A DNA stretch of 64,000 bases, taken from NCBI GenBank assembly GCA_030278955.1, contig JAOANR010000003.1, positions 31,511,227 to 31,575,226 of the forward strand, given 5' to 3'. The position numbers were made by a program, and so were the translations under genes. Position 1 is the first letter of the stretch, and each line of letters opens with the position of its first letter. Shown here piece by piece: positions 710 to 64,000 of the stretch. Under the pieces are notes generated by a model. It was not told the DNA's origin. It worked only from the letters and a program-made list of their open reading frames with translations, and searched no databases. This DNA comes from Hygrophila difformis. Its lineage: Eukaryota > Streptophyta > Magnoliopsida > Lamiales > Acanthaceae.

Positions 710-2813
710 TGTAATACCCGAGAATTTTGTAACATAAATAAATAAATAAATACAATATATAAATAAATTAAATAATTTAAAGATAAAATGAGAAATGGAA
801 TTTAATTCCAAGAGATGAAATGAGAAGTGAAATTTAATTCAAGAAGGAATTAAATATCCAAGAACCCGAGAAGTCGAAAATAATTTAATTAAATAAATTA
901 TTGCACGGGAGCCAGAAGACGACGAATTAGAAGCCGACGAATCCAAATGCGACGGACTCAAGATTTCGAATACGGGATTAATTCGAAACGAGATAAATTT
1001 AAGATGAATTTATAATCCGAGGATGACCCGAAAAATCGAGCCCGAAAAGGTATGAGGATAGAAACCCGAAAGAGAGGAGAAAAGGCCCGACGGGATCGCA
1101 CGACCCAGTCCGAACGCACGGCCCAGACCAGGCCGCGCGCCCGTTGGCCTAGCACCGCGCCACCACCGCGCCACTACAGAGGCAGCTGCACACTTGCACG
1201 TTTTGGCAATTTCTTGCCTTATTTTCGACCTCCGACTATGGAAACTCAATCACGAATAGGGGAAAGGTATTATGGACGAAATTTGGTTGATCCTTATACC
1301 ATTATTCAGATCCTAACCGTTTAATTCATTCCTCAACACTCCATATTCTCTCATTTGTTCTCCCAAAACCGAAAACCCCAAAATCCCCTGTGTTCTTGAG
1401 TTCCCGACGAGCAACCGGAGCAAGAGGGCGTTGGAGAAGAGAGGTCAGACCCTTTAGGACGTGGGTAAGTGTTTCCTTAAGTTTTCCTACACATTTTCAA
1501 ACCCGAAAAGTCGATCTAACACTAGATTTCTTCTTTCGAGTCGAATTCGTGGCCAAAGTCGGAAGCTTCGCGTTGAGGAGATCCGTTCGTAGCCATCCGT
1601 AGATTCCGGACGAACCAAGGGCTGTTTAGAACTCATATTATGTAAGTTAATTCTTACATACGGTTTTTGGTGGCTAAAATTTAACCCGAACATGAGATCT
1701 AACGGAAAACTCGATGAAATCTGTCAACAAGATATTCACACGCGCGCAGCGTTCTTGGAGGAATTTTTCGAACCCTTAAAATTCTTCAAACGAGAAAACT
1801 CAAAACATAAAAAGTGTTCCTAAGACATAGATATACATGCTGCAAAATGTTCATAATTTTTCGTGAAAGTTTGATCCCGAAAACCGAGTCTGAACACCTC
1901 TGAAATTATTTTCGCACTTAGAACTTGGCAGATTTCACTCTCGATCTTGTTAGCCATTTTGACCTTGGATCTAGGCCGAATTAGGACTTGTGCAAAACAT
2001 GAAATTTGTAGATCTATGAGTATTGAATACCCCTGTAAAATTTCATTCATTTTCATTAAGATTTGCTACCCCAAACCGCGTCGAACATATTCTGTTGCGC
2101 GTGAACTTTTCGAAAACTGAGACAGACTATATGATCGAACTTGATGTGCATATTTCTATCACTTGTGATCAAAACTAATCTTTGGTGTAAACATAAAAGT
2201 TGTAGATAAATGTCTTGCCAACATGCCTGTAAAATTTCGTGCATTTTCATTAACGTTTGTATAGTCAAAGCCCGTGTTGAATACACTGTGTCCAAGAAGG
2301 AAAAATCGACAGATTTTTAATCCAAACTTAGTGGATTAATCTGACTTAATCCATGATGAATTTGCATAATTTGCCTCTAATAAAACTTGTTTATTGGGTG
2401 TCTTTTAAGTGCCTGTAAAATTTCATAAATTTTGGAGGTCGCTTGCTATGTTAAAAACTCTTTTGAAAATCAGTGCGCTGTGTAGACAATTATGGCAGAT
2501 TTTGGCTTGTGTAAATATTGTAGAATTTCACCCGTTTCCTCACATAATTTTGGAAAACTTAAAACACGAAAGTTGTTCGTTAGCGTGTTCTCGATCTACT
2601 ATAGAAATTTCAAGTCGATTGCCCTTGAAATAAATTTTTAAACTGAGATGGCGTAAACTGTGGAAATGGCTTGGTTGAAATGTTGAAAAACTCGTCTTTG
2701 AGAAACACATGATTTGCGAGATATGTCTAAACAAATAAAAAAAAAAATTTTAAATTATTTTGAAACTTTGGTGAGTTGTGACCAAGTTAGATATTATCAA
2801 TATTGACTATGTG

Positions 2814-2977: not shown

Positions 2978-3257
2978 GAATGGTGATCTATAAAAGAAAC
3001 GAAACGAGAAATTTATACGAGATTTAATTAAATCCTTGCTAAATTGTGTTTTGGTTTATATCAATTTATTTAATCGCCTTGCAAGTTATACATGTGATCA
3101 TTTGGCATGCTTACCTTTGATTTCTACAATTAAATTCCATTATCTTGATGAGTTAATTTATATAGTGGCTGCGATCATGCTAAATGTAAGTCAATTCTTT
3201 TTTTAAATAATTAAAGGCTTTGAAACCCAATTATTCTATGCTAGGGGTTAACTTACT

Positions 3258-3303
3258 CAGCATGTTTATGCTGACAAACCGTTGCTCTCTTTTTTCTTTT
3301 CAG
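3258..3303 (+). promoter_or_regulatory. Hairpin H1 plus polypyrimidine-CAG (putative splice acceptor) in the R1 LTR
   Basis: Stem CAGCAT/ATGCTG with loop GTTT at 3258-3273. The 3' arm runs into CTGAC, a match to the plant branch-point consensus CURAY. A pyrimidine tract and CAG at 3301-3303 follow. The same order is seen in the other LTRs of the window with different stem sequences. Splicing is inferred, not shown. Confidence 0.55.
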
Positions 3304-3650
3304 AGTATGAGGCTTACACATGAGCATAGCATGCATTGGGATTTGGGAACGTTTACTCTCGTTTTTATACATGACTTGCATAACGGGCCTGTATAACCCG
3401 TGTTTTGGCCGTGTTGGCCCTATTTATATTTCCGCTGCTATATCTATATTTAAATATTACTTTCCGCTGCAACATAGATAATACTATGTAATGATTTTTG
3501 TTATATATTTATAAATGGGCTATTTGAAATGTTTTAAATTCTGAAAAACCATAGCCTTGCATCTCTCTAACAAGCTCGGAGAAACCGCGTCTTGCTAGGG
3601 AGGTGTGGCGGTGACATCCCGGCCTGGGTTATCAAATCCGGGGTTTTACA

Positions 3651-5104
3651 GTAAGTTCCAACATCAATAACTATATATCAAGGAAGATATAATAGTAAGA
3701 AGTCACAAAAACATGAAATTTGAATTTCTGGCGTAGACAAGGCTAACTACGCCAAAATAGGATGTCTGGCGTAGATAAACGCCAACCCTGAAAAATGAGA
3801 ATTTTCAACAGCTGGCGTCGGCAAGGCTACCGACGCCAAAAAGAGTCTCCTGGCGTCAGAAAACGCCAGACCTGAAGGTGGAGAAAATTTCTCCCCTGCT
3901 TGGCGTCAACTAGGCTTGTTGACGCCAAAAATGACTTCCTGGCGTCAAAATACGCTAGGACTGATGGTGGGGAAAAAAAATTCTTCCCTCCTTGGCGTCA
4001 ACTAGGCTTGTTGACGCCAAAAATGGCTCCCTGGCGTCAAAATACGCCATGGCTAACTGTCCAAAACAAAATTCATTTTCCCATCTTGCTACCATTATTC
4101 AAATCAAGCATTATCCTATCCCTTGCCTGGAAATTCTTGATGAATTGAGCTCCAAACTTCAAGTCATAAGCTCCTCAAACTCCAATTCAACACCAATCTA
4201 CAAATTTGAAATCAAAACACATTACCCCTATCTTTATCATCCTCTTCCTCCAAGTATCAATTCCCCCATTCAAAACCTCAAAAATGCAAACAAGGAAATG
4301 AGCAAGAATGTTACCTTATGACATGCAAAGCACCAATGCCAATTCTTGAAGTGTTTCCAAGTCTCCCTCAATTCTACAATCAAGATTCTCATATTAAACA
4401 TCCCCTTTTTCCCTTCTTCATCCTTCCACCACCAAACTACTACATTTATCATGCAATCAAACTCACACTCAAGATACACAATATTATAGGTCAAAGTCAT
4501 TCCCATTAACATGCACAATCTCAATAGTTGAATTTTGAAAGCCAAAAATAACTTCCCAACTCCCAATCTATGAAATTTAGCCAATAACATCATCATTTTC
4601 GTCACCCCTTTACACAACCCTTAAAACAGCCCCAAAACCCACCAAATTCATGAAACAATACCAGAAATCACTTACCCATTGGTTATATAATGAAACTCCC
4701 ATGAAATTCCAAGCATACCTTGCAAGAATCCCTCAAGAATGACCTTCAAAATCTCCATCTTTCTCTCTTGCGGGAATGATACTTTCTTGAATAAGAAATT
4801 GAGTTGGGAAGGGGAAATAAGCCTACAATGGCTGATTTGGAGTATTAGTAGGTATTAGTGTCATCCGGGTCGGGTCGGGGCAGACGGGTCGGATCATGGG
4901 TAAGGTTGGTGGGCTTGGGCTTGGGCCATTCTCTTGGTAGGTTAGTGAAATTTTCTTTCCATTGGGCTTATCTTCTTAATTCAATTATCTCCATCATGGG
5001 CAAAGGCCCTTTATCTCTTATTCAATGAGCCCAAGCTAGTTTCTTGACTTCAACTAATTGTAATTAATTTAATTAGTTATAAATTAATTACCCGGGATGT
5101 TACA
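3651..5104 (-). repeat. R2 left (3') LTR, interrupted by R1
   Basis: Matches 9886-11339 base for base apart from scattered substitutions and ends CCCGGGATGTTACA. It holds the tandem double-hairpin array at 3728-4052. A 115-codon minus frame (4270-4617) recurs in the other LTR at 10505-10852. Both copies are expected simply because LTRs are identical at insertion, so I do not call it a gene. Confidence 0.88.
3728..4052 (-). repeat. Tandem double-hairpin array (R2 left LTR)
   Basis: Four units of about 85-93 bp. Each has a long hairpin and then a short one. Long stems are TGGCGTAG/CTACGCCA, TGGCGTCGG/CCGACGCCA and twice TGGCGTCAAC/GTTGACGCCA, so the distal part of the stem changes on both sides together. 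Short stems are TGGCGT/ACGCCA. Units are separated by AAAA and CCTGA-like spacers. Confidence 0.8.
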
Positions 5105-8790: not shown

Positions 8791-11339
8791 TGTAACGTCC
8801 CGAAAATTTTAAACCAAAAATTTCCGTGACGTCACTGCCGTGCTACATCACCTAAGCTGTTGGCCAGTCAACTTAGGGTCTGTAACACGAAGCTGAGTAC
8901 CTGAAGAATCAGAAAAATCCCACCACACCATAATTATAGTAATTATATATATATATATCAAATTAACAACATATCCGGGCATCCGGCCCTGCTATCAATC
9001 TCATAATTATCAGTTAACATATTAACTCAGTAATAGATCGAAGTCTTGAACTACTACGGCTCACAAGCATTTCTAATTATATTAAAACTCAATGCAGAAT
9101 AATTAACTATAAAAGCATATAATATGTCCATTAGCTAAGTGAGCAAAAACCATTTAAGGGAATAAAACATGTTCGCTCATCCCCAACCCTTCAATATGCC
9201 CAATGCACCGCGCCATCCTCAGGAGTATCTATAAAAGAAAATAGCAGGGGGTCAGTACGGGTACTGAGCAAGGGAAGAATAATGGGGGATGGGGATACAT
9301 CAACCACATACTACTGTCATACATTAACAAAGTAATTAAATAAATAAGCAACCACTGCAATCAAATAAATGTTATGATATGATGAAATGAATGATATGAC
9401 CTATGTGTCTATCTATCCTAAATGCAGCAATTAATCATGTCTAACGCATTTCCTAATAACCATGGTCGACAGTCATCATTGGCGATAGGACACCACCCTC
9501 TCCCATCACAATGAACTGCCCGTACACGTCGCCCCCGCCGCGGACGAACAGCCTACGCAGGGCCAATAACATAGGTGAGGGAGCCGGATAGTCGTCACTG
9601 ACCAGAGCGGCGTCTAGCGGGTCATGGCAAAGGGTTCACTCCCCAATTGCCGCATCATGCCACACGCACAACACACAGACCCGGGATATCAGCTGAATAT
9701 CCCTATGGGTCAATTCCAGTCAAGGGAGTAAATCCCAATCAAGCACATAGAATGAACTCAACATATCCATATATATATACGACTGAGATTTGCCAAGCCT
9801 CGCATAACGGCAACCATAATATAATCCCAATTCTAACGCATAATCACATAAGATGAACTTATGAATTTGTCTAGGTTCGTATCTCGTAAGTTCCAACATC
9901 AATAACCATATATCAAGGAAGATATAATAGTAAGAAGTCACAAAAACATGAAATTTGAATTTCTGGCGTAGACAAGGCTAACTACGCCAAAATAGGATGT
10001 CTGGCGTAGATAAACGCCAACCCTGAAAAATGAGAATTTTCAACAGCTGGCGTCGGCAAGGCTACCGACGCCAAAAAGAGTCTCCTGGCGTCAGAAAACG
10101 CCAGACCTGAAGGTGGAGAAAATTTCTCCCCTGCTTGGCGTCAACTAGGCTTGTTGACGCCAAAAATGACTTCCTGGCGTCAAAATACGCTAGGACTGAT
10201 GGTGGGGAAAAAAAATTCTTCCCTGCTTGGCGTCAACTAGGCTTGTTGACGCCAAAAATGGCTCCCTGGCGTCAAAATACGCCATGGCTAACTGTCCAAA
10301 ACAAAATTCATTTTCCCATCTTGCTACCATTATTCAAATCAAGCATTATCCTATCCCTTGCCTGGAAATTCTTGATGAATTGAGCTCCAAACTTCAAGCC
10401 ATAAGCTCCTCAAACTCCAATTCAACACCAATCTACAAATTTGAAATCAAAACACATTACCCCTATCTTTATCATCCTCTTCCTCCAAGTATCAATTCCC
10501 CCATTCAAAACCTCAAAAATGCAAACAAGGAAATGAGCAAGAATGTTACCTTATGACATGCAAAGCACCAATGCCAATTCTTGAAGTGTTTCCAAGTCTC
10601 CCTCAATTCTACAATCAAGATTCTCATATTAAACATCCCCTTTTTCCCTTCTTCATCCTTCCACCACCAAACTACTACATTTATCATGCAATCAAACTCA
10701 CACTCAAGATACACAATATTATAGGTCAAAGTCATTCCCGTCAACATGCACAATCTCAATAGTTGAATTTTGAAAGCCAAAAATAACTTCCCAACTCCCA
10801 ATCTATGAAATTTAGCCAATAACATCATCATTTTCGTCACCCCTTTACACAACCCTTAAAACAGCCCCAAAACCCACCAAATTCATGAAACAATACCAGA
10901 AATCACTTACCCATTGGTTATATAATGAAACTCCCATGAAATTCCAAGCATACCTTGCAAGAATCCCTCAAGAATGACCTTCAAAATCTCCATCTTTCTC
11001 TCTTGCGGGAATGATACTTTCTTGAATAAGAAATTGAGTTGGGAAGGGGAAATAAGCCTACAATGGCTGATTTGGAGTATTAGTAGGTATTAGTGTCATC
11101 CGGGTCGGGTCGGGGCAGACGGGCCGGATCATGGGTAAGGTTGGTGGGCTTGGGCTTGGGCCATTCTCTTGGTAGGTTAGTGAAATTTTCTTTCCATTGG
11201 GCTTATCTTCTTAATTCAATTATCTGCATCATGGGCAAAGGCCCTTTATCTCTTATTCATTGAGCCCAAGCTAGTTTCTTGACTTCAACTAATTGTAATT
11301 AATTTAATTAGTTATAAATTAATTACCCGGGATGTTACA
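8791..11339 (-). repeat. R2 right (5') LTR, complete
   Basis: 2549 bp, from TGTAACGTCCCG to GATGTTACA. Read on the minus strand it carries hairpin H2 (8851-8877, CCTAAG/CTTAGG), hairpin H1 (9253-9266, CAGTAC/GTACTG with a 2-base loop) and the double-hairpin array at 9963-10287. The flank after 11339 is CTTTC. Its duplicate would be off-window left. Confidence 0.9.
9963..10287 (-). repeat. Tandem double-hairpin array (R2 right LTR)
   Basis: Second copy of the four-unit array at 3728-4052, with the same stems and only isolated substitutions. Confidence 0.8.
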
Positions 11340-13740: not shown

Positions 13741-15170
13741 TGTAACACCCCGGTTTTTGATAACCCAGGTCGGGATGTCACCGCCGCACCTCCCTAGCAA
13801 GACACGGTTTCTCCGAGCTTGCTAAACATATGCAAGGTTATGGTTTTTCAGAATTTAAAACATTCAAACAGCCCATTGTAATATAATTTAAAAATCATAA
13901 TATCAAAGTTGCAGCCGAAAGTAATATTTACATATGTATAATGCAGCGGAATTTAAAATTGGGCCAACACGGCCAAAATACGGGTTAAACAGGCCCGTTC
14001 ATGCAATTCATAACTAAGAACAGAATAATAAAAAAAAAATAATGTTTTCCCAAACATCCCATTGATGCATATGAGGATGCATATTCTTCATACTCTGTAG
14101 AAAAAGGGAAACGTGGTTTGGTCAGCAAAAACTCGCTCGTAAGTTAACACCTAGCATGATTAAGGGGTTTCAAAGCCTTTAATTACATTTAAAGAAAACA
14201 TGTGCATACAAGACATGATTTACTTTTATCCATCTAATAATAATTTAATTGCATAATTTAAAAGACAGGGATTCCATAAGATCATAAATATTGCTTGCAA
14301 AGTAATTAAATAAATTGACATAAACTAAAACACAATTTAACAAGAATTTAATTTAAATTTCTTATAAATGTCTCATTTCATTTCTTTCACAGATCACCAT
14401 TGCTAGGGCTCTCATGTCCGCCAGCCTTACGCTTGGGCTCTTATGTCCATAAGTATCATGGTAAATCTTTTAATAGGTTCATTACGTTCGCTAGCCATAC
14501 AATCAATATTTCGCTAGGGCTCTTACGTCCACTAGACATACTCTTGGGCATTTATGTCCACAAGCCGTAGACAACATTGATAGTATCCAGCTTAGTCATA
14601 AACCACAATGTTTTAATCTTCTCTTTATTTAGAAAGACCAATTTCACAAATTTAGTAAGTTTCTCAAAGATATACTATTTCAGGACGCTGTTCGCTCCAA
14701 TATCATTTAAAAATTTATTTCAAGACCAAAAATTCTCAAATTCGAGCAATAGCTCGCTGACACACTAACGAACAAGTTTCGTGTTTTAAGTTTTTCGATC
14801 CGAGTTAAGGAAATAAGTCAAACACATGGTTTTTCATCAGGATATTAATCTGTCCGAATTTTCACAGCCACAGTTTCTAAATTTCGAAATATCTACCATA
14901 GCAAACGAACTCCAATTTTGATGAAATTTTACAGGCTCATTTCTAACACGATTATCTACAACTTTCATTTAGAACTCAAAGCCTAATTCTCGTTGGATGA
15001 GGGGTTAATATTTGGATCAAGTTCGAAACTAATTTCTGTCAGCTTTTATGAATACGGTAAGAACGCAGATTGGCTCGGTTCAGGTTCAGAGGTTCAAATC
15101 GTAAAGAAAAATTCTAAAAATTTACAGAGGTGCTCTAAACTTATAGATCTACTACTCTTATGTTTAACAC

Positions 15171-17038
15171 TGTAACACCCCCAATTTAAAACACCAAAAT
15201 AATGGGGATGCTACTGTCACATCTCTTGGATAGAATACTATAACGCACGAATCAACCACTAAGGCTGTAATAAGAAAACATAATCCATTATAGTTTCAAA
15301 AGTAATTGTACAAAAGATATCATGAATTTAAAGATGATTTTTATTAGCTAAAGATAAAACTTGAAATCCCATCCCAATGCTGCACGTGCTCATCACTACT
15401 CACTTCTAAATCCCGAAAAGAGAAAAGAAAAACACACACACAACTCAGTATAAACTGGTAAGTTAACTACAGTTCCACAAGGACAACACAGAGAAATGAC
15501 ACATCCGCAATATTAACATATTTAATATGAAGACGAATTAATATTGACGAGGACATTTTTTTACCGCATAATCCACAAAATTCCGCATAATCCGCACATA
15601 GCATCAACTCGTCAATAGTAACTTGCCCACATAAAACATATTTTACGAATAACTCATTAAAGAAACGACACATAACATGTCATGCCTTTATCCATAGCTC
15701 CTACGATGAATTAACATTATAACTTGACAGCAACAACTAATAAAACAAAGAAATTGAAACTCAGAACCGCCCACAACACTTTAGCAAGGTCCTACATTGG
15801 AAATGCCAAATTAGGTATCTTTAGTTTATCCAGAGAGTATAAATGTATATGCATTTGCATCTCTAATAATAATATTATATGTGTAGATATGTATGTATAT
15901 TGAGTCATGGTCTGGTACACTCGCCACCATATTGGACTCCATTAGACGACTACTAAGCAACTAGTATATTATATACACATTTGCTAGATATTTCAAACAC
16001 TTTAACTCAAATTAAAATTAAATAATTAAGGTCAATCATACCACATGACTCTGACCACTTGACTCTATACAGGCTACTCATAAACCCATATAAATTTGTA
16101 TACTGAACACTTAATTAGGATTTTGCAGCGGACATTCCAGGGAGGGTATCTGATATACCGGTAGTCGCACGTCACCCATGACATGGTAAATAATACACCA
16201 GGGTTGTAAAAGACTATAGAGCAAATTCAGGCAAATACTGGACAACAAAATTTGGACGATGTAGAATACAGAATTAACTTACAGAGGACCAATATTTTTA
16301 AATTGATAACACAATACTTCCATAAACTAGTCCTGGGAAGAACGATTAAAAGAATATAGGAAGATGAGGTGAACTTACTGTTCACAATTGATTAGAGCAG
16401 AAGGGACGAAAGCTTTCTCTCTGGACAGCTATTCTCTACTCCAAGCACGGCAGAATGAGACAGCAAAAACTAGGATTGTTCTAGGTATGACTTTTGCTAA
16501 TGGATTTATAAGGATTGACTGTTTAGATTAGCAAGATTCTTGGGATTGGATTACTTTTAAATCACTCATATCTTTTAAATTACACATATCTACCGTATCC
16601 CTCCTAGTTTATTTGTGAGATTAGATTTCAATTTTAATCAACTCTAAGTCCTATGTTTAGGACAGTAACACTTATTCAAAATTCCTATGCATATTTATTT
16701 ATAATTATATATATTTTTTCTAATTATTTAACTCATTTATGTATCTATTATAAGGACCATATTAATATCACCACTACTACTATCATTATTATTACTCTAA
16801 ATTCTAAATACTAATTTATTTATGTATATATTATTATAACCATTATTAATATTTTATGGGTATCACAATCTACCCTCCTTAAAAATCGATTTCGTCCTCG
16901 AAGTCGCTTAAGGTATAAGGATTGTAATTCATCCAAGGGTTATAGGAAATGTGACCTTTGAGCATGCGAGATAGTCAAACGGTGTGATTGTGTGTTAGTT
17001 CGACATATCCTCAAGTGGAGTGATTATTTGACCGTTAC
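15171..17038 (-). mobile_element. R4a: LTR plus 171-bp internal stub inserted in the R4 left LTR
   Basis: Absent from the R4 right LTR, where AACAC is uninterrupted at 55137-55141. Here AACAC appears at 15166-15170 and 17039-17043. The insert starts TGTAACACCCCC and ends ...CCGTTAC(A), so a 4- or 5-bp duplication is possible. An LTR seems to span 15171-16867 and ends GGGTATCACA. It is followed by a polypurine complement (ATCTACCCTCCTT) and about 170 bp of 3' internal sequence resembling 53013-53160. No PBS, second LTR or frame is present. H1 is at 15446-15457 (CAGT/ACTG). It is either a truncated element or a small non-autonomous one. Confidence 0.6.
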
Positions 17039-17865
17039 AACACTATTCCTAAATCGGTCTAGATCTAATGTAAAAATCACTAACAAGTTTTGAAGTAAAA
17101 TCTGTCACCATTTGAAGATCTAAACCCAAGGCAGGTTCGTTTGAGACAGTTTTCGGATATCAAATCTTAACCAAAAATTAAGAAAGTTTTATAGGGAATA
17201 GATCAGTGTCTTAGGAACGTTTTTTGTGTTTTAAGTTTTCCCGTTTGAACACTTTTAAGGGTTCGAAAAATTCGTGCTACGTGACTGCGCCAGTGTGAAC
17301 AGATTTTTAGTTAGGATTTCTTATTAGATCTTATTCGTTCGGTTGTTTTTAGTCTCCCAAAACCATGGTAAGTATTAACTTACAAGAATTGGATTATCCG
17401 GCTCGTCGATTCGTAGGCGTGGCTTCCACACCGTTTGACTCCTAGATCCTCGCACGCGTCCAAATTCCGTCGTCTCTTCTTCCTTACCACCCGATCTACG
17501 CTTTGGTGTGTCAAAATCCGCCCGATGTGCCTTCTTCTCCGTTGAGATCGTCCTCAACACCCACGAACTAGGTTTTTTTTTTTTTTCCCTCTTCGTTCTC
17601 TTTTTTTTTTTCTCTTTTTGTTTTATTTTTTTATTTTTTTTGTATGTAGAAATTGTTGGAGTAACAAAATAGGAAGATGAGAAAGATTTAGCTTAAAAAG
17701 GGGTAAAGGGGCGGCACTTAGGGGTTGTTAGGATTTAAGGTTTGTCACCAATATTTGCTATTTGAAAGATACAATAATATACTATGTATTCTAACTTTTA
17801 TATACTAAAGATAGGCTAGATTTTGTTTTAACTACTACTAAGCAAATATCTCTATATTGTTGATA

Positions 17866-17870: not shown

Positions 17871-18742
17871 TGTAACACCCCGGATTTGATAACCCAGGCC
17901 GGGATGTCACCGCCACATCCCCCTAGCAAGACACGGCTTCCCGAGCTCACTAAGGAAATGCAAGGCTTATGGGTACGTAAAAGATTTAAAAACATTTCAA
18001 CATTTAGTCCGGAAATTAATAATACTTATTTCAAAATACGGAAGTAATAATCATCAGGCACGAAATAGAGTAAATGCAGCGGAAAAGTAATCACGGCCAA
18101 CACGGCCAAACCTCGGGTTTAACAGACCCGGTAAAACAGTAGTACGATGCAGTAATTAAAAATGTTCATAAATGTTTCCCCCCAAGTGCATGTGCATGCG
18201 TCACTCGACATACTCTGTAAACGAAAAATGACAACGGTTTATCAGTATAAAAATATACCGAGTAAGTTAATCCCTAACTAAACAATTTAAGGGGTTACAT
18301 GCGTTTTAACTAAAGATTACACTTTTCATGCATTAATTTAAACATCATAATTTACTCGCAGCGGATGAACATGATTAATTTATTCAAGACGAAAATACAT
18401 AATTAAAGGACTAAATTTTAAAGCGTAATTTAAAAGCATAACTTAAGAACGTAATTTAGAAGCATAATTTAAAAACATGGTAAATAGGCTTTAAGCATAA
18501 TTAAACACTCACACAAGTCTTTTAAATTTATCCCGCAAACTAAGAAGAGGACACCATACCGGGGAAATCACTAACGAGGCAATCTCAAAATGTAGGACCA
18601 CTAACAAGGCAGTCCAAATAAATGGGAGACCACTAACGAGGCAGTCTCAAAGATAGTAGGACCACTAACGAGGCGATCCAAATAACACAGCGCGCGAGAT
18701 CACTAACGAGGCAATCTCAGATAGTAAGGAGACCACTAACGA
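17871..18742 (-). repeat. R5 3' LTR, outer segment (left of R6)
   Basis: Matches 48413-49284. It carries H2 (17924-17952, TAGCAAG with CTCACTA, pairable using two G-U pairs on the transcribed strand), H1 (18243-18260) and most of the CACTAACGAGGCA hairpin array (18558-18742). It ends in AACGA, the R6 target duplication. Confidence 0.9.
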
Positions 18743-19330: not shown

Positions 19331-20932
19331 GACCTCCCAGGAGCTCCGAATACTTTTACAAAACCCTACAACTTTCTATACATTCGAAACCCTAAATCCG
19401 GAGTCGTCGGAGGCACGAAACCAAGGCGAACACTGTTGGACGAAAATTCTAAGATCTCCATAGTCGTGGTAAGTCTCGATCCAATCCTTGTTTTATATAC
19501 GATTCGAAAACGAATCCTAATCTTCTTCTTTTCTCTTCTACACCTCGTATTGGATCTAGATCGTAGAACCCGACGAACGGAGAGGAGAAACGGTGGACTG
19601 GAAGCCACGCCTTCGAAATAGACGATCCCGGACGTTCACAACTCTGTAAGTTAACTCTTACATGGTTTTGGGATGAATTAAAACATTCAAAACTAAAAGA
19701 TTAACAAGAAATCGAAAATCTGTCAATTTATACTTTCCACCGACGCAACAGATTTGATGAATTTTTCCGAACCTTAAAACGACTTCAAACGGAAAAACTT
19801 AAAACACAAAAAACGTTCCTAAGGCTTAGATCTATCTACTGTAAATTTTTGAGAATTTTTAGAGACGATTTGATATGCGAAAACCAACCGAAACCGAACT
19901 GCTTGAATCTAGATCTCGAAATCCTGGACAGAACTTAGGAATGATCTTGATCACGTTTTTGACATAGGATCTAGACTTTTTTAGATCTTTGGCCGAACAT
20001 GAAAGTCGTAGATAATTGTCTTAAGATGATCTCTGTAAAATTTCATCAAATTTGGAATTGAATTGCTATGGTAGAATTCGAAATCTTTAAACTGTGGTAC
20101 ATTAAATTCGGACAGAAATATTCTTCTACGAAAATTGGTGATTTTGACCTGTTTAGGTATCTCGGATTGAAAACGTTAAAACACGAAAGTTGTAGATCTC
20201 GATGTTTCTGAGTCATTCGTTAAATTTTGGAATTTTTGGAATTAAATCTGATTTTAGACGAATTTTAGAGTAAACTGTGGTTTACCGGAAACAAAATCTT
20301 GAAATCTTGTTGAAACATGGAATTAACCTTTAGGGTTGAAATGAGTTGAGATATTATTTTTAAATGAATACAATTAAAGTCAGATTTTTAAAAAATTAAA
20401 TCCCCTTATAAACTTGATAAATTAAAATTAGGGGTGAGTGCTCTGCAGGGTGCCCCCTAACTGCTTCACTTCGTGCCTTAATGGACGATGGTGACCCCGC
20501 GCGCTAAACTTGAGATATGATATTGCCAAAACGGCGAAATACAGAGCCTACACTCTCGTGAATATCCACATGGGTTTCCCGAGGCTCCGGAGTGGTACTG
20601 GGTATGGCTGATACGGTTGCGGCCGCCGGGCTACCGGCTAAACTTGTTGACATCGCGATGCTATCATGAAACTTTGAAATACCAAATCGGGAATGTAATG
20701 GGGATATTAAATTAAATTAAATTATGTTTGATGTCCAATTAAATTATTTAAATGTTTTATTTAAATTATGGCTATTATTCTAAGTCATGCGAAATGTGTT
20801 GTTAAATAGAGCCCTGAAATAAATTATGCTATCGGTTGGATTAAATTAAATATTATGTTATTATCATGCTTTTATTAAATTATTAAAGTTAATGGCTTTT
20901 AAACCCTACGATCATGCATGTGTTAACTTACT

Positions 20933-20977
20933 CAGCAAGTTTGCTGACCAAAACCGTTTTTATTCCTTTTCTTACAG
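20933..20977 (+). promoter_or_regulatory. Hairpin H1 and putative splice acceptor (R6)
   Basis: CAGCA/TGCTG stem with loop AGTT, then CTGACC and a T-rich tract ending TTACAG at 20977. With a donor near 19469 or 19646 this would define an intron of about 1.3-1.5 kb wholly inside the LTR. The 3' LTR repeats H1 at 29503-29516. Confidence 0.55.
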
Positions 20978-23969: not shown

Positions 23970-23970
23970 C

Positions 23971-36223: not shown

Positions 36224-38008
36224 TGTAATACCTTAAAATTTTGCTATGTTGATAATATTTTAATTTAGTATTATTTCTTAAGAAAATAAATTGAATTGGG
36301 AAATAAATTAATATTTCCAAGATAGAGATTGGTTCGAGGGAAATGAATTATTTTCCAAGGGAAATAAATTAAGTTGAATTGAGAAGTATATTTTTTCAAG
36401 GAAAAATATCTAATAAAGATGAATACTTGACAATAGTATTAGCTAAGTATTATTTTTCTATCATGATTTTATATTAAGTATAATTAATTTTAAGTAGCAC
36501 AAATTCTGAAATATGATAAATAGTCTAGTATGGTAAGATTCAACTTATATTTTATGATTTGAATTAACATTATTGATAGATAAATATAAATTGCAAGAGA
36601 TTATTATTATTATTATTATGGAAATACATATGTCAATTATTACCGCACAACTATTTTATAATCTTTGTTAATAGTATAGATTTATGAACACTATAATATG
36701 ACATTTTCAGTAGGTATTATCAAGTGACCAATATCTATTTGATTATTAAAGAATGAAGTCTACCACGTCAATTGTGTAATCATGCGAGGCAGCCATTTTG
36801 AAATGGATGAGAATACAGATAAGTGCATGGTTGTGTACGTGGTAATAAGGAAAATGCGTGTAACGAAGAGGAGCAGCAATAGCTTTGCTGAGTAGTGTGT
36901 AGACTGATGACTAATGAGGTGCTGGGATGCCTATAAATAAGGACAGGTACGCTCAATATTGAATCATCAAGTCATACGAGAGGAAAGCTGGTGAGAGTGA
37001 GAGATCAGTTCAGAGTGTTAGAGAAAGAGAACGGTAGATAGAGGAGTGAGTGCTGTGGATTTTAATAGCTAACTACAGAAGAACTTGTAAGTAAATTTTT
37101 ATTCTACGGGCTTTTGTCGTAGGATTAAATTTTTGCATGTCTAAATACCTTCGTGTTTCAATAATGTTAGGGTTTATTCATGCAATTTATTTATGCAGAG
37201 GTATTGCCCAATTATGTGTTTAAATTAATTTTGGGGCTAGACCATGCATGTGAAAAGTGAAATTTCAGTGTGTGGCATGTGAATTATTGAATTGTTATTA
37301 TGCGAGATATACCCCAGAGGTGGATATCTTCGTGAGATATTTCGTGGGTTATCCAAGGGATTCCCATGAACAGGATTGTGTTTGACCAAGGGTCTCACCG
37401 TCATTTTCTAGATCGTAAGGTAGGGCCATCCTTGTGTACTCATATTTTGACTTCGGTCATTATGAGGGCATGTTAGGTCCTATGAGATACCCCGGGTGTA
37501 GGCATCATAGTCGAGCTACATGTGGATTGAATTATTGGAACTGTTTTGACATGCCATTTACTGTTGAGTCGTAGTTAATTATTTTTGTCCAAGGGATAAA
37601 AATTTATTTACTCAGCCGGTGTGCTGATAAATGTTACTTACTCACTTTTTCAGGATTTGACATTTGTGAAGCTCATTAACATCACGGGCACGGACAGGGG
37701 AGTCCGTATCGTTTTACAAGTGGTTATTTTAAATAATATTTTACTTGTAGTAAGGTTGTCGTTTTAATAATTGGTCGCAGTTATTGTAATTTTAAACTCT
37801 GATATTTTGTTAAATTAAATATATTTTGAATTTTAGTTAATAGTTTAAATTAATGTTTGTAACTATTTTAAATAGCCTTAGCACTTTTAATTAAGTTAGC
37901 CGAGGCAAGGTCAAGGCGAGCTTAATTGGAAGTGTGGCGGTAACAACCCCATTTTTTTATTGGTAACTTCCGCTGTGATTTTTAAGATAAGAAAATGGGG
38001 GTGTTACA
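36224..38008 (+). repeat. R7 5' LTR
   Basis: 1785 bp, from TGTAATACCTTA to GTGTTACA. It shows an ATT microsatellite (36600-36620), TATA box (36931), strong donor CTTGTAAGTAAAT (about 37086), H1 (37613-37626, CAGC/GCTG) followed by ACTTTTTCAG (37653), and H2 (37889-37927, AATTAAG/CTTAATT). The 3' LTR lacks a short stretch near 37190 and has GAGATTG inserted near 45809. Confidence 0.95.
37889..37927 (+). other. Hairpin H2 (R7 5' LTR)
   Basis: Perfect 7-bp stem AATTAAG/CTTAATT with a larger loop than in R6, at the same place relative to GTGGCGGTAACA and the LTR end. Confidence 0.55.
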
Positions 38009-48409: not shown

Positions 48410-49102
48410 ACTTGTAACACCCCGGATTTGATAACCCAGGCCGGGATGTCACCGCCAAATCCCCCTAGCAAGACACGGCTTCCCGAGCTCACTAAGGAAA
48501 TGCAAGGCTTATGGGTACGTAAAAGATTTAAAAACATTTCAACATTTAGTCCGGAAATTAATAATACTTATTTCAAAATACGGAAGTAATAATCATCAGG
48601 CACGAAATAGAGTAAATGCAGCGAAAAAGTAATCACGGCTAACACGGCCAAACCTCGGGTTTAACAGACCCGGTAAAATAGTAGTACGATGCAGTAATTA
48701 AAAATGTTCATAAATGTTTCCCCCCAAGTGCATGTGCATGCGTCACTCGACATACTCTGTAAAAGAAAAATGACAACGGTTTATCAGTATAAAAATATAC
48801 CGAGTAAGTTAATCCCTAACTAAACAATTTAAGGGGTTACATGCGTTTTAACTAAAGATTACACTTTTCATGCGTTAATTTAAACATCATAATTTACTCG
48901 CAGCGGGTGAACATGATTAATTTATTCAAGACGAAAATACATAATTAAAGGACTAAATTTTAAAGCGTAATTTAAAAGAATAACTTAAGAACGTAATTTA
49001 GAAGCATAATTTAAAAACATGGTAAATAGGCTTTAAGCATAATTAAACACTCACACAAGTCTTTTATATTTATCCCGCAAACTAAGAAGAGGACACCATA
49101 CC

Positions 49103-50666: not shown

Positions 50667-52478
50667 ATGTTACCAAAATATTCGATATCGCGTTTCGTAG
50701 TTCGAGTTTTCTCAAGTTCGAAAAATCCGATTCGACGCAGTTTACGCCTTTCTTAATTAAAAATTCATCTTTACACTAAAAATTCTGAAATTTATAAAGT
50801 AGCTCAAAAACACACATACGAACAACTTTCATGTTTTAAGTTTTCGGAAATAAGATTTCGAAGTGAGTCAAATTTCGAGTTCTTTGCAAAAGATGATTTC
50901 TGTCCAAACGACTAATTCCGACACAGTTACGTGCGACGCCGATTAAAAATTCATTTCAAAGCCAATTGGTCCGAAATTTTTACAAGATGTGCACAACACC
51001 TTATTGAACAACTTTCATGTTTTACGATTTTGGAAATAATGAATTTTAGATGTTCAAATGTCGACCACAACACGCTGCATACGCGCGGACTCCAAAGTTG
51101 GTTTAGAACAGTTTCTGAAAATTGTCCGTTTTGACATATCAAATGAACTCCAAAATTCATGAAATTTTATCTGCATAATCGGGACACAATTATTTACAAC
51201 TTTTGTTTAGAAATGCAAAGTTGAATCGATCTAAAAATGGGTGAAAAATATGCATCAAGTCGAGTCTATAAATCTGTCCAAAATTCAAATGTTCGGTTTT
51301 GTCACAAAAACTTTACGGTGCGATTTGGGATAGCAAATCTTTATGTCAATGGCTGAAATTTGGACACAAGGTAGATTAGAGTCTTAAAAACAAAATCTAT
51401 GTTGAAAAGTTTTCGGTTTGAATTCCCGAAGGTCGGGTTTTAGGCGAGTTTCAAAAATTGGACGAAAATAGGGATTTTGAAAACCGATTTTTGTTATGTG
51501 TCTAGATCTCAAGTTTTAAATGACAATAAACCACAAAAATTCAAGAGTAAGGTCTTAACTTACTTAGTTAGAGAGTGGGGTTGTCGGAAGGGGTTTCCGG
51601 ATATCCTAAGGTCGCGACGAATGGCCAACTTCTCCGATCGCTTTTTGTTCGTCCCCTGACGTGAAATCGTAGTAAAAGAAAGGATGTTAGATTTCGAGTT
51701 TTTAAGGTTTATGGATGAACTAAACACTATACCATGGCTTACCAAAGGTCTAGGAAGCAGAGGCTTCGTCCCGTTTGCCTCGTCGTTGCCGGAATACTCG
51801 CCGGAAAGTGGAGTCGAAGAGATTTTGGCTTGGAGAGGAAGGATGGGAGAGTTTAGGGTTTGTTTTCTGAAACTAATGGGTAGGGGGCGCCCAAAACCGA
51901 ACTTATGCCCTTCCCTACTGCTGGGATCCGTTTACCATCGAAGGGAATGTTAATTTAGGCAAGAAAATCGCCATGGAAGGAAAGTTTACACCTTCTGCTC
52001 CTCTGGCACGGTGGTGACACGCACGTAGAGCTTTGCCCGCGTGACCAGTCCTGGGACGCGTTGCCTCCTTCCGCGCGGTGGCCGCGCGGCGGCGCGCAGC
52101 GAGTGCGTGCCGGCCGGTTCGGCGGTCCGCGTGGTTTGTCGGGTCTTTTCTTCATTTCTCTATCGGTTTTCTACCCTCTACGTGTTAGCTCGACTCCTCG
52201 GGTCGTTTCCGGTTCGAAATCTTTACCTTAAACTTGTTACGAGTTCGGGCTTAACGCTCGTAACATTTCCATGCCCTAATTGGTCTAGTTAAATTAGTTC
52301 CAAATCCTCCTAACGTTTTTGTGATTGATCCTGTGATTTATTTGTGATTTAATTTGTGATTTATTTTGTGACTGAACTTAGAATTTAGACTTCCAAGCTG
52401 CCTACGTACCCTGTGAAGGGATCAAGTCATGACGTAGTTCAAAAAGAATTTGAATTTGTTTTTCCTCGGGTGTTATAT

Positions 52479-53714: not shown

Positions 53715-56266
53715 TGTAACACCCCGGTTTTTGATAACCCAGGTCGGGATGTCACCGCCACACCTCCCTAGCAAGACACGGTTTCTCCGAGCTTGCTAAA
53801 GAGATGCAAGGCTATGGTTTTTCAGAATTTAAAACATTCAAACAGCCCATTGTAATATAATTTAAAAATCATAATATTAAAGTTGCAGCGAAAAGTAATA
53901 TTTACATATGTATAATGCAGCGGAATTTAAAATTGGGCCAACACGGCCAAAATACGGGTTAAACAGGCCCGTTCATGCAATTCATAACTAAGAACATAAT
54001 AATAAAAAGAAAATGTTTTCCCAAACATCCCATGCATGCATATGATGATGCATATTCTTCATACTCTGTAGAAAAAGGGAAAACGTGGTTTGGTCAGCAA
54101 AAACGTGCTAAGTAAGTTAACAACTAGCATGATTATGGGGTTTCAAAGCCTTTAATTACATTTAAAGAAAACATGTGCATACAAGACATGATTTAATTTT
54201 ATCCATCTAATAATATTTTAATTGCATAATTTAAAAGACAGGGATTCCATAAGATCATAAATATAGCTTGCAAAGTAATTAAATAAATTGACATAAACTA
54301 AAACACAATTTAACAAGAATTTAATTTAAATTTCTTATAAATGTCTCGTTTCATTTCTTTCATAGATCACCATTGCTAGGGCTCTTATGTCCGCCAACCT
54401 TACGCTTGGGCTCTTATGTCCACAAGTATCATGGTCAATCTTTTAATAGGTTTATTTAGTTCACTAGCCATACAATCAATATTTCGCTAGGGCTCTTACG
54501 TCCACTAGACATACACTTGGGCACTTATGTCCACAAGCCGTAGACAACATTGATAGTATCCAGCTTAGTCATAAACAACAATGTTTTAATCTTCTCTTTA
54601 TTTAGAAAGACCAATTTCACAAATTTAGTAAGTTTCTCAAATATATACTATTTCACGATGCTGTTCGCTCCAATAACATTTAAAAATTCATTTCACGATC
54701 AAAAATTCTCAAATTCGAGCAGTAGCTTGCTGACACAATAACGAAAAAGTTTCGTGTTTTAAGTTTTTCGATCCGAGTTAAGGAAATAAGTCAAAAATAT
54801 GGTTTTTCATCAGGATATTAATCTGTCCAAATTTCCACAGCCACAGTTTCTAAATTTCGAAATCTACCATAGCAAATGAACTCCAAATTTGATAAAATTT
54901 TACAGGCTTATTTCTAACACGATTATCTACAACTTCCGTTTAGAACTCAAAGCCTAATTCTCGTCGGATCAGGGGTTAATATTTGGATCAAGTTCGAAAC
55001 TAATTTCTGTCAGCTTTTATGAATTCGGTAAGAACGCAGATTGGCTCGGTTCAGGTTTGGAGGTTCAAATCTTAACGAAAAATTCTAAATATTTACGGAG
55101 GTGTTCTAAACTTATAGATCTACAACTCTTATGTTTAACACTATTCCTAAATCGGTCTAGATCTAATGTAAAAATCACTAACAAGTTCTGAAGTAAATCT
55201 GTCACCGTTTCAAGACTGTTTTCGGATATCAAATCTTAATAAAAAATTATGAAAGTTTTATAGGGAATAGATCAGTGTCTTAGGAACGTTTTTTTGTGTT
55301 TTAAGTTTTCCCGTTTGAACACTTTTAAGGGTTCGAAAAATTCGTGCTACGTGACTGCGCCGGTGTGAACAGATTTTTAGTTAGGATTTCTTATTAGATC
55401 TTATTCGTTCGGTTGCTTTAGTCTCCCAAAACCACGGTAAGTATTAAATTACAAGAATTGGATTATCCGGCTCGTCGATTCGTAGGCGTGGCTTCCATGT
55501 TCACCGTTTGACTCCTAGATCCTCGCACGCGTCCAAATTCCGTCGTCTCTTCTTCCTCACCACCCGATCTACGCTTTGGTGTGTCGAAATCCACCCGATG
55601 TGCCTTCTTCTCCGTCGAGATCGTCCTCAACACCCACGAACTAGGTTTTTTTCCCTCTTCGTTCTCTTTTTTTTTCTCTTTTTGTTTTATTTTTTTATTT
55701 TTTTGTATGTAGAAGTTGTTGGAGTAACAAAATAGGACGACGAGAAAGATTTAGCTTAAAAAGGGGTAAAGGGGCGGCACTTAGGGGTTGTTAGGATTTA
55801 AGGTTTGTCACCAATATTTGTTATTTGAAAGATACAATAATATACTATGTATTCTAACTTTTATATACTAAAGATATGCTAGATTTTGTTTTAACTACTA
55901 CTAAGCAAATATCTCTATATTGTTGATATAGTTATTTATTTTATTTTGTTTTATCTTATTTTATATATTGTACATAGAATTGATTTGAATAGCAAAATAG
56001 ATGAGGAAGATTAAATTTTGAAAGGAGTAATGGGCGTTAGATTTAGGGATTTAGAATCAAAGATTTATTCCAAATCTTTTCCTATCATATTGGGTTTGAC
56101 AATATACTAAAAATAGACTAAATATTATTATAACTAGCATGCATATATATTGTTGGGTTTAACAATATACTAAAAATAGAGTGAATCTTCTCATATTAAT
56201 AAATATAGACTAAATATTTATTTCCAATTATTCTGCTATGTATATATATAGATTGTTTTGTTGTTA

Positions 56267-57883: not shown

Positions 57884-60538
57884 TGTAATACCCGAGAATT
57901 TTCCAATATAAAATAAATACAATAAGTAAATAAATAAATATAATAAACATGATAAAGGGATAAAGAATCATAAAAGATGAGAAATGAAATTTAAATTAAA
58001 GAGGAATCAAAGTTCCGAAAACCCGGGGCTCCGAAGGCAATTTAATTGAATAAATGGTTACACGGGGACCCGACATCGATGGACGCAATAACTCGAGTCC
58101 AAACATAAATTTAGGGCCGAATAAAATTAAGTAGGAAATCGGAGCCCGAAGATACCCCGGAAATCCGAATCCGGGAACGTAGAGGGATAGAAGTCCGAAA
58201 GAGAGGAGGAAACGCCCGACGGATCGCACGACCCGGCCCAGACCGAAGTCCAGGCCAGGATGGCGCGGTCGCCGCGCGCTCCAAAGGAGAAGACCGCGCC
58301 AAGGGCGCGCCGGCAGAGCAGTTGCGGCGTTCCGCGATTTTCTCGCCCGATTCCGGATTTTTCGACTTTCGGTTGAACATCTCTCGACTCAAGACCCTTA
58401 GGGTCAGATCTTGGATGCCCTAGGTCTTAAATATCTATAAATAAACCCTCTTGGAAGCCCCAAACTCTTGACGAAACCCTACGAAATCTTTCTATACGTC
58501 GAAACCCTAATCCCGAAGTCGTCGGAGGCACAACACCGAGAGAAGGGACTGACTTGGACGAAATTGGGGTCTTCTATTACCTTGGTAAGATCCGATCTAT
58601 TCCTCTATACATTCTTGATTCAAAAACAAAACCCTAACCTCATCCTTTTTCTATTCTAAACCCCCGATCCGGATCGAGAGCGAAGAACCCGACAAACGGA
58701 GAGGATAAACGGAGGACTGGAAGCCACATCTCCGAATCGACGATCCCGTACGCTCAACAATCAGTAAGTTAACGCTTACGTTGGTTTTGGGTTGTTAAAA
58801 GATTCGAACATATAGATCTAATGGAACCCTACCTAAAATCTGTCTACACCGGCGCAGCGCTTTTATTGAATTTATTCGGACCCCTTAAACGTTCAACGAG
58901 AAAACTTAAAACACGGAAAACATTCCTAAGACACTGATCTAGCTCTTGTAAAAATTTCATAATTTTTCATCGTGTTTCGCTATCCGAAAACGATCGTAAA
59001 CGAGCCTGCTTTAGATTTAGATCTTGAAACGATGATAGATTCTTTATTCGAACTTGTTGGTGATTTCTACCTTAGATCTAGACCGATCTAGGCTTGGAGT
59101 TGAACATAAGAGTTGTAGATCTATACGTTATGAATACCTCCGTAAAGTTTCAGAATTTTTCGTGATCATTTGATATATGAAATCCACCCCAAACCGAACT
59201 GGTTTAAAATCGGTCTTGAAAACTGGACAGAACATAGATTCGAACTTGTTGACGTTTTTGACTAGAGTTCTAGGCTGAATTAGATCTTTAGCCGAACATG
59301 AAAGTTGTAGATAATTGTCTTAAGATGATCTCTGTAAAATTTCATCAAATTTAGATTTCATTTGCTATGGTAGATCTCGAAACTTTTAAACTGCTGTGTG
59401 AAAACGCGGACAAATTTTTGATCTGACAAAAATTGACGTTGTTGACCTATTTCGGTATCTCGGATCGAAAAGGTTAAAACACGAAAGTTGTAGATCTCAA
59501 CGTTTTGGAGTCAGTTGTGAAATTTCGGAAATTTTGAAATTAAACCTGATTTTAGACGAATTTTAGAGTAAACTGTGATTGACCGAGTCAAATCTCGATA
59601 TCTTGTGGAAACGGTGAAATTAACCTTTGAGGTTGAAACGGATAGAAATACTTTGAAATACGATACACGAAACGAGAAGATTAAAATATGGCGGGTTATG
59701 ACTAAGCTAGATACTGTCAATGTTCTCTGCGGCTTGGGACATAAGAGCCCAAGTGTATGTCTAGGTTGACGTAAGAGCCCTAGCGAAACACTGATCGTAT
59801 GGCTAGCGGACGGATTAACTCTAATTAAAAGATCGACCATGATACCTGTGGACATAAGAGCCCAGGCGTAAGGTTGGCGGACATAAGAGCCCTAGCGGTG
59901 GTGATCTGTAAAAGAATCGAAACGAGACATCGTTGAGGGAATCCAATTAAGTCCTTGATAATTTGTGTTTTTAAATTTATGGCAACTTATTTAATTACGT
60001 TGCAAGCTATATTGATGATCTTATGAATCCATGTCTTCTAAATTATGCGATTACATGAATTGTTTAAATTATGCACATGTTTTCATTAAATTTAATTAAA
60101 GGCTTTGAAACCTCATAATCTTGTACGTGTTAACTTACTCAGCACGTAGTGCTGACCAAAACCATTTTTTTTTCTTTTTCCTACAGAGTATGAAGAATAT
60201 GCATCATCATATGCATGCATGGGATATTCGGGGAAATATTATCTTCTTTTATTATTCTAGCCTTAGATATGAATTGCATGAACGGGGCTGTTTAACCCGT
60301 GATTAGGCCATGTTGGCCCTATATTTAAATTCCGCTGCAATATATATGTAAATATTATTTTCCGCTGCAACTTTGATGTATTATTATTAAATTATATATG
60401 AATGAGCTGTTTGAATATTTTAAAATTCTGAAAAACCATAGCCCTGCATCTCTTTAGCAAGGTCGGAGAAACCGTGTCTCGCTAGGGAGGTGTGGCGGTG
60501 ACACCCCGACCTGGGTGACCAAAAACCGGTGTGTTATA
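57884..60538 (+). mobile_element. R9: solo LTR of the R6/R1 family
   Basis: 2655 bp bounded by TGTAATACCC and GTGTTATA, with TSD ATCGG (57879-57883 and 60539-60543) and no interior or second LTR. It was therefore formed by LTR-LTR recombination. It has a GC-rich block (58260-58330), TATA box (58435), a GTAAG donor-like site (58585), a hairpin array (59731-59897), H1 (60140-60154, CAGCAC/GTGCTG), an acceptor-like CTACAG (60186) and H2 (60455-60484). Confidence 0.93.
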
Positions 60539-62511: not shown

Positions 62512-64000
62512 TGTAACACCCCCATTTTCCCTAAGGATGCAGCGGAAGAAAAGTGCGGGAACAATGGGTGGGGTGCTACCGCCACGTATTCCGGACCGCC
62601 CGAAATACGCTAAGGCTAAAAATAATGAGTGCAGAACATCAGAGTTTAATGCATATGCTAACCACTTCCCGGGCAAGTTAGCATATACTCTGCACAAAAG
62701 CTTATAATACCGTAATAAGTATAAAATAAGCTTAATAAAAAAAATGTTTGGTATAGCGTAACCAAACGGAGGAACGCATTCCTCAAAGGAGCTCAACAAT
62801 AGGAATGGAATAAATCCATGGAAATTTTTATTTTAAAAGAGGTTGTACCTCGCATTTCAAAAATATTATAATAAGGGGTTGTCTATCTCGTATTTCAAAA
62901 ATAACACTGCTAAATGCAAAAATGCATTGTTTAAACAGTAGGACACAACATTTGCATAAACGTGATAAAACCCAAATATTTACTCATGCTTGATAAATAC
63001 TTTACCATGCTTTATAAAAATTATCTTTGCCTCATAAAAAAATGATCTATGCCAAGTAATATGTCCTTATCCCAAAGGGGATTAAAAATATACATTCTTT
63101 TAATTAATACCCCATACCGTGCCCGTGCAAAATATGCTCTATCGAACCTTGCAGATCTGAAACCTGAAAGAAAATGGTGACAAGTGTAAAGTCAGCGAAA
63201 ACAATCGCTGAGTAAGTAGAAGTTTACTCCCGGAGGAGATAGGGTAGCAGAAATAGTTTAAAAACAACAGTTAAGGTCATGGTATGCTAAAACGAGAATA
63301 ATTTATACATAAAGACAGTATTAATCTAAATCCCGGGAAAAGATAATACAGCAATATGCGTTACCGAAATTTAAATATTTCAGCCACCGTGTGTGGGGTT
63401 CCGCTCTAGGGCTCTAGTCCCACTCGAAGGTGGGGTCCCTGTTTGTCGGAATCAAGTCCCACATGCACTCAAGGGTGTGGGGGAGGTAAGAAATTTCCTC
63501 AAGCCCACTATGAGAGAAGACCATAGCGCCGAGCTGTGAGTCCCAATAGTCCCCGTGTGGCGATTAAGTGCACAACAGCGTGGGAGTTGGGCAGCTGCGA
63601 CCCATGGCACATCGCTCATCCCCATAACAATGAGCTCAAAAATCCAAAGGATTTTGTGAATAGTTGCGAACATTATAAAGCACAGTAAAATGGCATACCA
63701 GTAATCCAAAAATAGTAGGGAGCTATAAGCATAAATTTAAAATAATAAAGCGGTAGTAAAAATTATGCTTAAGCTAAAATAAATTTGGCTTTACTCCAAA
63801 GAGTAAAAATCTACTTACCGTCACCGTGGGGAGAATGGAACTCAACACACGCACAGGCCTACGAGCAAATATCCCTTTACAGCTATTTGACTAGCAAAAA
63901 TTATAATATTAACATCATTTGCTATAATGATATTTTAATGGAAATAATACTAAAATTTTCCAATTTAATAAATCTTACCCGAGTGCTCTCACTGACTCGC
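62512..64000 (-). repeat. R10: LTR truncated by the window end
   Basis: Starts TGTAACACCCCCATTTTCCC, like the R7 LTR end read on the minus strand. H2-type hairpin at 62585-62609 (CGTATT/AATACG), H1 at 63193-63210 (CAGCGA/TCGCTG) with a TTTCTTTCAG acceptor-like site (minus strand, about 63162), and a region 63400-63600 with CCCAC...GTGGG-type inverted pairs. Frames in it (62488-62799, 63452-63709) appear to be chance. Confidence 0.75.

Follow-up and report, generated by a model that had tools for sequence, protein, structure and literature searches.

Nested Ty3/gypsy-type elements make up the window

The window analysed here, a 64-kb stretch of Hygrophila difformis DNA, consists of nested plant elements of the Ty3/gypsy type, as judged from self-matches within it. 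Its open reading frames contain Pfam domains for gag, protease, RT, RNase H and integrase. Matches to the Chromo domain were weak, and neither that in R6 (E = 4.3e-4) nor that in the ORF at 31835-33481 (-) (E = 0.079) reached the curated cut-off. The elements may be plant chromoviruses, with their PBS and the style of their LTRs pointing to Tekay. Inside the R6 element, a 456-codon open frame at 22638-24008 (-) matched Pfam Transposase_32 (E = 8.9e-9; 35.9 bits, below the curated cut-off of 45).

The R2-type LTRs carry repeat units with the inverted words TGGCGTC...GACGCCA at 3728-4047 and 9963-10282. By eye, a motif like GTGGCGGTnACAnCCC recurs at the 3' ends of LTRs that are otherwise dissimilar (e.g. 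3600-3650 (+), 37950-38008 (+) and 62512-62600 (-)), and the last 18 nt of the R7a and R10 LTRs match each other by blastn.

A hairpin ending in a branch-point-like word is shared by nine LTR families

Thirteen LTR copies from nine families, amounting to about five independent groups in this one window, span the place of a hairpin that we call H1. H1 is present in all 13, and in 12 of them it is followed by a polypyrimidine tract and AG. The H1 hairpins are as follows.

3258..3273 (+), R1 H1; A of CTGA at 3274, AG ends at 3303
20933..20946 (+), R6a H1; AG ends at 20977 (R6b: 29503-29516, AG ends at 29547)
60140..60154 (+), R9 H1; AG ends at 60186
37613..37626 (+), R7a H1; AG ends at 37653 (R7b: 46764-46777, AG ends at 46804)
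63193..63210 (-), R10 H1; AG ends at 63164
48785..48802 (-), R5b H1; AG ends at 48757 (R5l: 18243-18260, AG ends at 18215)
54095..54110 (-), R4b H1; AG ends at 54066 (R4l: 14123-14138, shifted stem, AG ends at 14095)
15446..15457 (-), R4a H1; expected AG lost
9253..9266 (-), R2 H1; AG ends at 9229

The original prediction had listed nine such hairpins, just 5' of a polypyrimidine tract and AG, and all nine sites hold the arms it gave: CAGCAT/ATGCTG (R1), CAGCA/TGCTG (R6), CAGCAC/GTGCTG (R9), CAGC/GCTG (R7), AGCA/TGCT (R4), CGGTATA/TATACTG with one G-U (R5), CAGTAC/GTACTG (R2), CAGCGA/TCGCTG (R10) and CAGT/ACTG (R4a). Its positions were right for the plus-strand sites, while the numbers for R2, R4, R4a, R5 and R10 are plus-strand positions of minus-strand hairpins. 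It had also assigned the hairpin to all LTR families of the window. This holds for the nine families but not for R3, an LTR 3' fragment ending near 12561 (-), where no H1 was found by the scan described below or on reading. The rule of a following tract and AG fails only in R4a, where the expected AG is lost and an AG lies 39 nt from the A of the CTGA word, compared to 23-31 nt elsewhere.

We scanned both strands, without reference to the LTRs, for a stem of at least 4 bp ending in CTGAY and followed by a pyrimidine-rich tract and AG. The scan returned 13 matches, 11 of which were LTR H1s on the transcribed strand, compared to 1.75±1.43 matches (maximum 6) in 40 dinucleotide shuffles. It missed R4a, which has CTGAG, and R4l. 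The matches outside the listed LTR sites lie at 42722 (-) and 6575 (-).

All ten distinct H1 sequences were hairpins by folding (-1.7 to -8.2 kcal/mol), including that of R4l, the second R4 copy, whose shifted stem lacks the outer pair. Across these ten copies the outer three pairs are near-invariant, pair 4 is C-G in seven and U-A in three, and pairs 5 and 6 are more variable and sometimes unpaired. At stem positions 4-5, 16 of 18 cells in the nine families are paired, a value reached by 797 of 200,000 swaps of the 3' arms. The covariation claimed for H1 is therefore real but modest. CTGA occurs in all ten distinct copies. The next base is C or T in nine, which gives the predicted CUGAC or CUGAU, a word that is branch-point-like by the plant branch-point consensus; it is G in R4a.

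The sequence upstream of H1 pairs with the start of an apparent intron

We compared the 18 nt just 5' of H1 with every upstream 18-mer of the same LTR. These 18 nt proved complementary to the opening 18 nt of an apparent intron, counted from G+1, and we refer to the resulting helix as P1. The strongest partner lay at or no more than 2 nt from the G of GTAAGT (GCAAGG in R2) in 10 of the 13 copies, with ties in R6a and R6b. The donor partner ranked third in R1 and second in R4a, and in R4b it was outside the four best shown.

1642..1659 (+), R1 donor GTAAGT and P1 5' arm; 15/18 pairs, 15 contiguous
3239..3256 (+), R1 P1 3' arm
19646..19663 (+), R6a donor and P1 5' arm; 15/18 pairs (R6b copy: 28206-28223)
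20914..20931 (+), R6a P1 3' arm (R6b: 29484-29501)
58764..58781 (+), R9 donor and P1 5' arm; 16/18 pairs
60121..60138 (+), R9 P1 3' arm
37087..37104 (+), R7a donor and P1 5' arm; 18/18 pairs (R7b: 46264-46281)
37594..37611 (+), R7a P1 3' arm (R7b: 46745-46762)
63801..63818 (-), R10 donor and P1 5' arm; 16/18 pairs
63212..63229 (-), R10 P1 3' arm
51546..51563 (-), R5b donor and P1 5' arm; 15/18 pairs (R5l copy: 30871-30888)
48804..48821 (-), R5b P1 3' arm (R5l: 18262-18279)
17366..17383 (-), R4l donor and P1 5' arm; 17/18 pairs (R4b: 55435-55452, donor GTAATT)
14139..14156 (-), R4l P1 3' arm (R4b: 54112-54129)
16265..16282 (-), R4a donor and P1 5' arm; 15/18 pairs
15458..15475 (-), R4a P1 3' arm
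10344..10361 (-), R2 GC-type donor CAG|GCAAGG and P1 5' arm; 12/18 pairs ungapped, 17 with one bulge; donor repeated at 4126 (-)
9268..9285 (-), R2 P1 3' arm, which ends in TTGC

Without gaps, 15-18 of the 18 positions are paired in R1, R6a, R9, R4l, R5b, R7a, R10 and R4a. R2 has 12 ungapped pairs, or 17 with a one-base bulge, and its P1 3' arm has a G that matches the GC donor. P1 and H1 are separated by one U, by a G in R4l and by nothing in R4a. The arm contains ACUUAC, which we take to resemble the end of U1 snRNA. Among the P1 cells there are 17 G-U against one A-C, an excess that points to RNA of the transcribed strand. A protein-bound DNA dyad was considered and rejected, as the half-sites vary across families yet the pairing is kept, with the same bias of 17 to 1.

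Pairing at +1 to +6 follows partly from the donor consensus, and the positions beyond +6 are therefore the informative ones. From +7 to +18, matched arms gave 85 pairs compared to a permutation mean of 64.7, and two of 200,000 permutations did as well; by duplex energy it was one of 200,000. With one LTR from each of the five groups, between which no same-strand blastn LTR match was better than E = 0.003, the duplex-energy test gave 1/120, the best possible value. A family's own arm was the single best partner in six of nine rows, while R6a, R9 and R4a did better with another family's arm. When each tail was shuffled 1000 times with its first six bases kept, the number of shuffles as good or better was 8 for R1, 7 for R6a, 1 for R9, 0 for R4l, 2 for R5b, 2 for R7a, 0 for R10, 29 for R4a, 5 for R4b and 220 for R2. 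The ungapped R2 score was reached by 49 of 2033 windows.

In a ten-copy alignment, six rows of which form one related group so that relatedness can inflate covariation counts, 87.0% of the cells in P1 and the H1 base were paired, compared to 75.6% in shuffles (0/500 as high). The covariation score was 0.340 compared to 0.140 (0/500), and double changes occurred at 10 of the 18 P1 pairs (reached by 1/500 shuffles). The five-group duplex-energy test guards against inflation of this kind. R2, which has the GC donor and an exonic CAG, contributes double changes even within the donor itself, at +2 and at +6. Sliding the partner by 1-3 columns lowered pairing to 25-47%. All eight GTAAG-donor arms had a GTAAG partner that paired at 15 or more of the 18 positions, compared to 13 of 14,259 control positions; this threshold was set after the eight values were known, and R2 and R4b fall outside the test. 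Duplex energy on the complementary strand was better in R10 and R2 and nearly equal in R4a; the evidence for a strand bias thus comes from the remaining families.

Compensatory changes in P1 exceed those in controls, and the same is true, more weakly, of H1. The covariation of P1 is much stronger than that of H1, and the sequence comparisons make P1 pairing well supported.

The paired elements bound an apparent intron inside the LTR

A GTAAGT donor, the branch word, a polypyrimidine tract and AG follow one another in order in seven of the ten distinct copies. The donor is GTAAGT in eight of the ten, and a pyrimidine tract with AG 23-31 nt after the A is present in nine. The exceptions are R2, whose GC donor follows an exonic CAG, R4b, in which the donor has become GTAATT, and R4a, which has CTGAG and has lost the AG. 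The apparent introns span 0.6-2.8 kb. P1 lies 0 nt from the donor, starting at G+1, and 12-19 nt from the branch-word A.

The donor lies 155-421 nt past a TATA-like box in six of the ten copies, 886 nt past it in R1 and 563 nt in R2; no TATA-like box was found in R5b and R10. At these distances the donor should sit in the leader. The suggestion in the original prediction of an intron inside the LTR fits these signals, and we infer that the apparent intron is spliced out. Spliced RNA, if copied, would give rise to LTRs without the intron.

In R6a, R9, R4l and R7a, four of the ten copies, exon 1 (from 30 nt past the TATA-like box to the donor) contains no ATG, compared to 1.5-2.8 ATG per 100 nt in their introns. 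Exon 2, however, has 2.0-3.7 ATG per 100 nt in nine of the ten copies (0.56 in R7a), so splicing would give no clean leader. Given the ATG-rich exon 2, removal of upstream ATGs was rejected as the purpose of the intron.

A second donor-like word, G|GTAAG, precedes the P1 donor by about 180 nt, at 1465 (+) in R1, 19469 (+) in R6a, 58585 (+) in R9 and 51742 (-) in R5b, and it possibly marks the start of a small leader intron. Incidentally, no intron-less LTRs were noticed in the window.

Short predicted folds place the donor beside the branch word

When the ten distinct copies were folded as short joined sequences, P1 and H1 adjoined. The partner of the spacer U is the A of CUGA in R1, R6a, R4b, R7a and R2, in which case the likely branch A would face G+1; in R9, R5b and R10 it is the last exon base.

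With longer flanks, the mean probability of P1 was 0.88-1.00 in R9, R4l, R5b, R10 and R2. For the joined fold and the whole intron it was 0.84 and 0.50 in R4b, and 0.97 and 0.18 in R4a. In R1, R6a and R7a (three of ten copies) it was 0.00-0.11, and other pairings were preferred. G+1 was still paired in the longer folds of these three (0.69-1.00), but outside P1; the cost of forcing P1 was 0.1 kcal/mol in R6a and about 6 kcal/mol in R1 and R7a. Given these mixed results, the claim for P1 is carried by covariation and not by folding energy. The models also make a switch between alternative folds possible.

In R1 another GTAAGT, at 3186 (+), lies close upstream of the P1 3' arm and competes with the donor for that arm in the longer fold. 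A local donor hairpin, GUAAG..CUUAC, was considered as a conserved partner and rejected. It reached -4.4 to -5.2 kcal/mol only in R1, R6a, R9 and R4l and was weak, different or absent in the other folded copies, and it is therefore not a general feature, although it may compete with P1.

A proposed clasp on donor and branch point, and other explanations

We think it somewhat probable, from the arrangement of these elements, that P1 and H1 together form a splice-site clasp that masks donor and branch point and so preserves unspliced genomic RNA. The apparent intron would lie in the leader part of the LTR transcript. P1, made of at least the first 18 intron nucleotides and the stretch 5' of H1, would adjoin H1 with a gap of 0-1 nt to give one composite fold, which would shield the 5' splice site, beginning at G+1, from U1 and the CUGAY word from SF1/U2. 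RNA in this fold would stay unspliced, keep the whole LTR and serve as template for reverse transcription, while RNA that escapes the clasp would be spliced into a message with a shorter leader. We infer that the clasp slows splicing and that the unspliced pool is the genome. The original prediction had the hairpin alone hide the branch point. An RNA hairpin with CUGAY is borne out, but P1 had been missed; as P1 covers the 5' splice site itself, donor and branch point would be masked together. A more far-reaching version, in which the clasp exists only in unspliced RNA, blocks donor and branch point with an arm that mimics the U1 end and also marks the RNA for packaging, is in our estimate unlikely. 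If true, a single RNA fold would decide between the genome and message fates of a transcript.

The pairing could have the opposite effect and aid splicing by bringing the 5' splice site to the branch point across an intron of 0.6-2.8 kb, with U1 displacing the last pairs. The short joined folds do hold donor and branch word close together, with the branch A able to face G+1. Zipper stems, which like P1 join the region of the 5' splice site to that of the branch point, are common in yeast introns, and RPS17B needs one for efficient splicing (PMC12350175). However, zipper stems leave donor and branch point free and are reported to show little sequence conservation and a scattered species distribution, whereas P1 starts at G+1, covers the donor hexamer and stops 12-19 nt short of the A, inside the limits described for stems that can coexist with the A complex (PMC12350175). 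The spacings of 0 and 12-19 nt argue for masking, and we consider an aid to splicing doubtful. Poorer still are the prospects for a fold that serves mainly to mark genomic RNA for packaging or export, with masking of splice sites secondary. From their positions, P1 and H1 coexist only in unspliced RNA, and retroelements elsewhere export unspliced RNA through RNA elements (PMC12786077), but a label has no need for pairing that starts exactly at G+1 or for a hairpin that ends at the branch word.

The foamy virus major splice donor also lies inside the LTR, and the structure there is thought to block U1 and serves poly(A) choice (PMC3694450). A similar role for the plant fold, governing U1 at the LTR donor for choice of poly(A) site and not splicing, would suit a donor within the LTR, 155-421 nt past the TATA-like box in six of ten copies. 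Here, though, in a plant retrotransposon, the donor pairs with the branch-point region over 0.5-2.8 kb. Such a role would leave the conserved branch-point hairpin, the polypyrimidine tract and the AG unexplained, and no poly(A) site was located in these LTRs, which makes it very unlikely. We give hardly any credence to functionless complementarity between donor and pre-hairpin words that are conserved separately. The donor consensus does account for part of the pairing at +1 to +6, R2 is weak in tail shuffles and the predicted folds of three copies differ. Against this stand the covariation past +6 in LTRs that do not align with one another, the G-U bias and the exact register. The splice-site clasp thus remains the reading that we prefer.

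Relation to known elements and significance

Rfam gave no matches at gathering thresholds, and viral contigs searched by protein and by two DNA patterns gave no relatives. Genome contigs yielded a single distant gypsy-like contig, in which the P1/H1 module was not recognised on reading. This contig (L001:1-6655) codes for a gypsy-like polyprotein and, although assigned to a Streptosporangiaceae MAG, is probably eukaryotic contamination. Among the literature matches listed, from coverage that mostly leaves out subscription journals and in the excerpts they offered, there was neither an LTR intron nor such a clasp.

Secondary structure also joins the intron ends in the nonconventional and intermediate introns of euglenids, in which the borders are mostly non-canonical and +4..+6 is paired with -8..-6 (PMC4770533). 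The borders here, in contrast, are GT/GC-AG, and the arm precedes H1, at a distance of about 42-60 nt from the 3' end of the intron; pairing of the euglenid type between +4..+6 and -8..-6 was not found in these LTRs. Ogre, EVADE and BARE are plant LTR elements whose RNA exists in spliced and unspliced pools, although their introns are in the coding region (between gag-prot and rt in Ogre, in gag in BARE, and with splicing removing part of the protease in EVADE) and the apparent intron here is in the LTR (PMC6317226, PMC12786077, PMC3735527). Sunflower elements have many splice isoforms, the expressed set there being without a Tekay element (PMC7730604), and leader-derived RNA of Cauliflower mosaic virus is spliced in many ways (PMC4498817).

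How one LTR-retrotransposon transcript is split between translation and reverse transcription is described as a major question (PMC3735527). The retention of P1 and H1 through matching mutations suggests, on present sequence evidence, an RNA lock by which part of the element RNA is kept unspliced as genome. A covarying donor helix that abuts a branch-point hairpin, in LTRs that do not align, is a testable handle on that split in plant Ty3/gypsy elements. The clasp would also imply an LTR-internal intron, in contrast to a 2025 review that describes introns as generally absent from plant LTR elements, with Ogre and EVADE as exceptions (PMC12786077).
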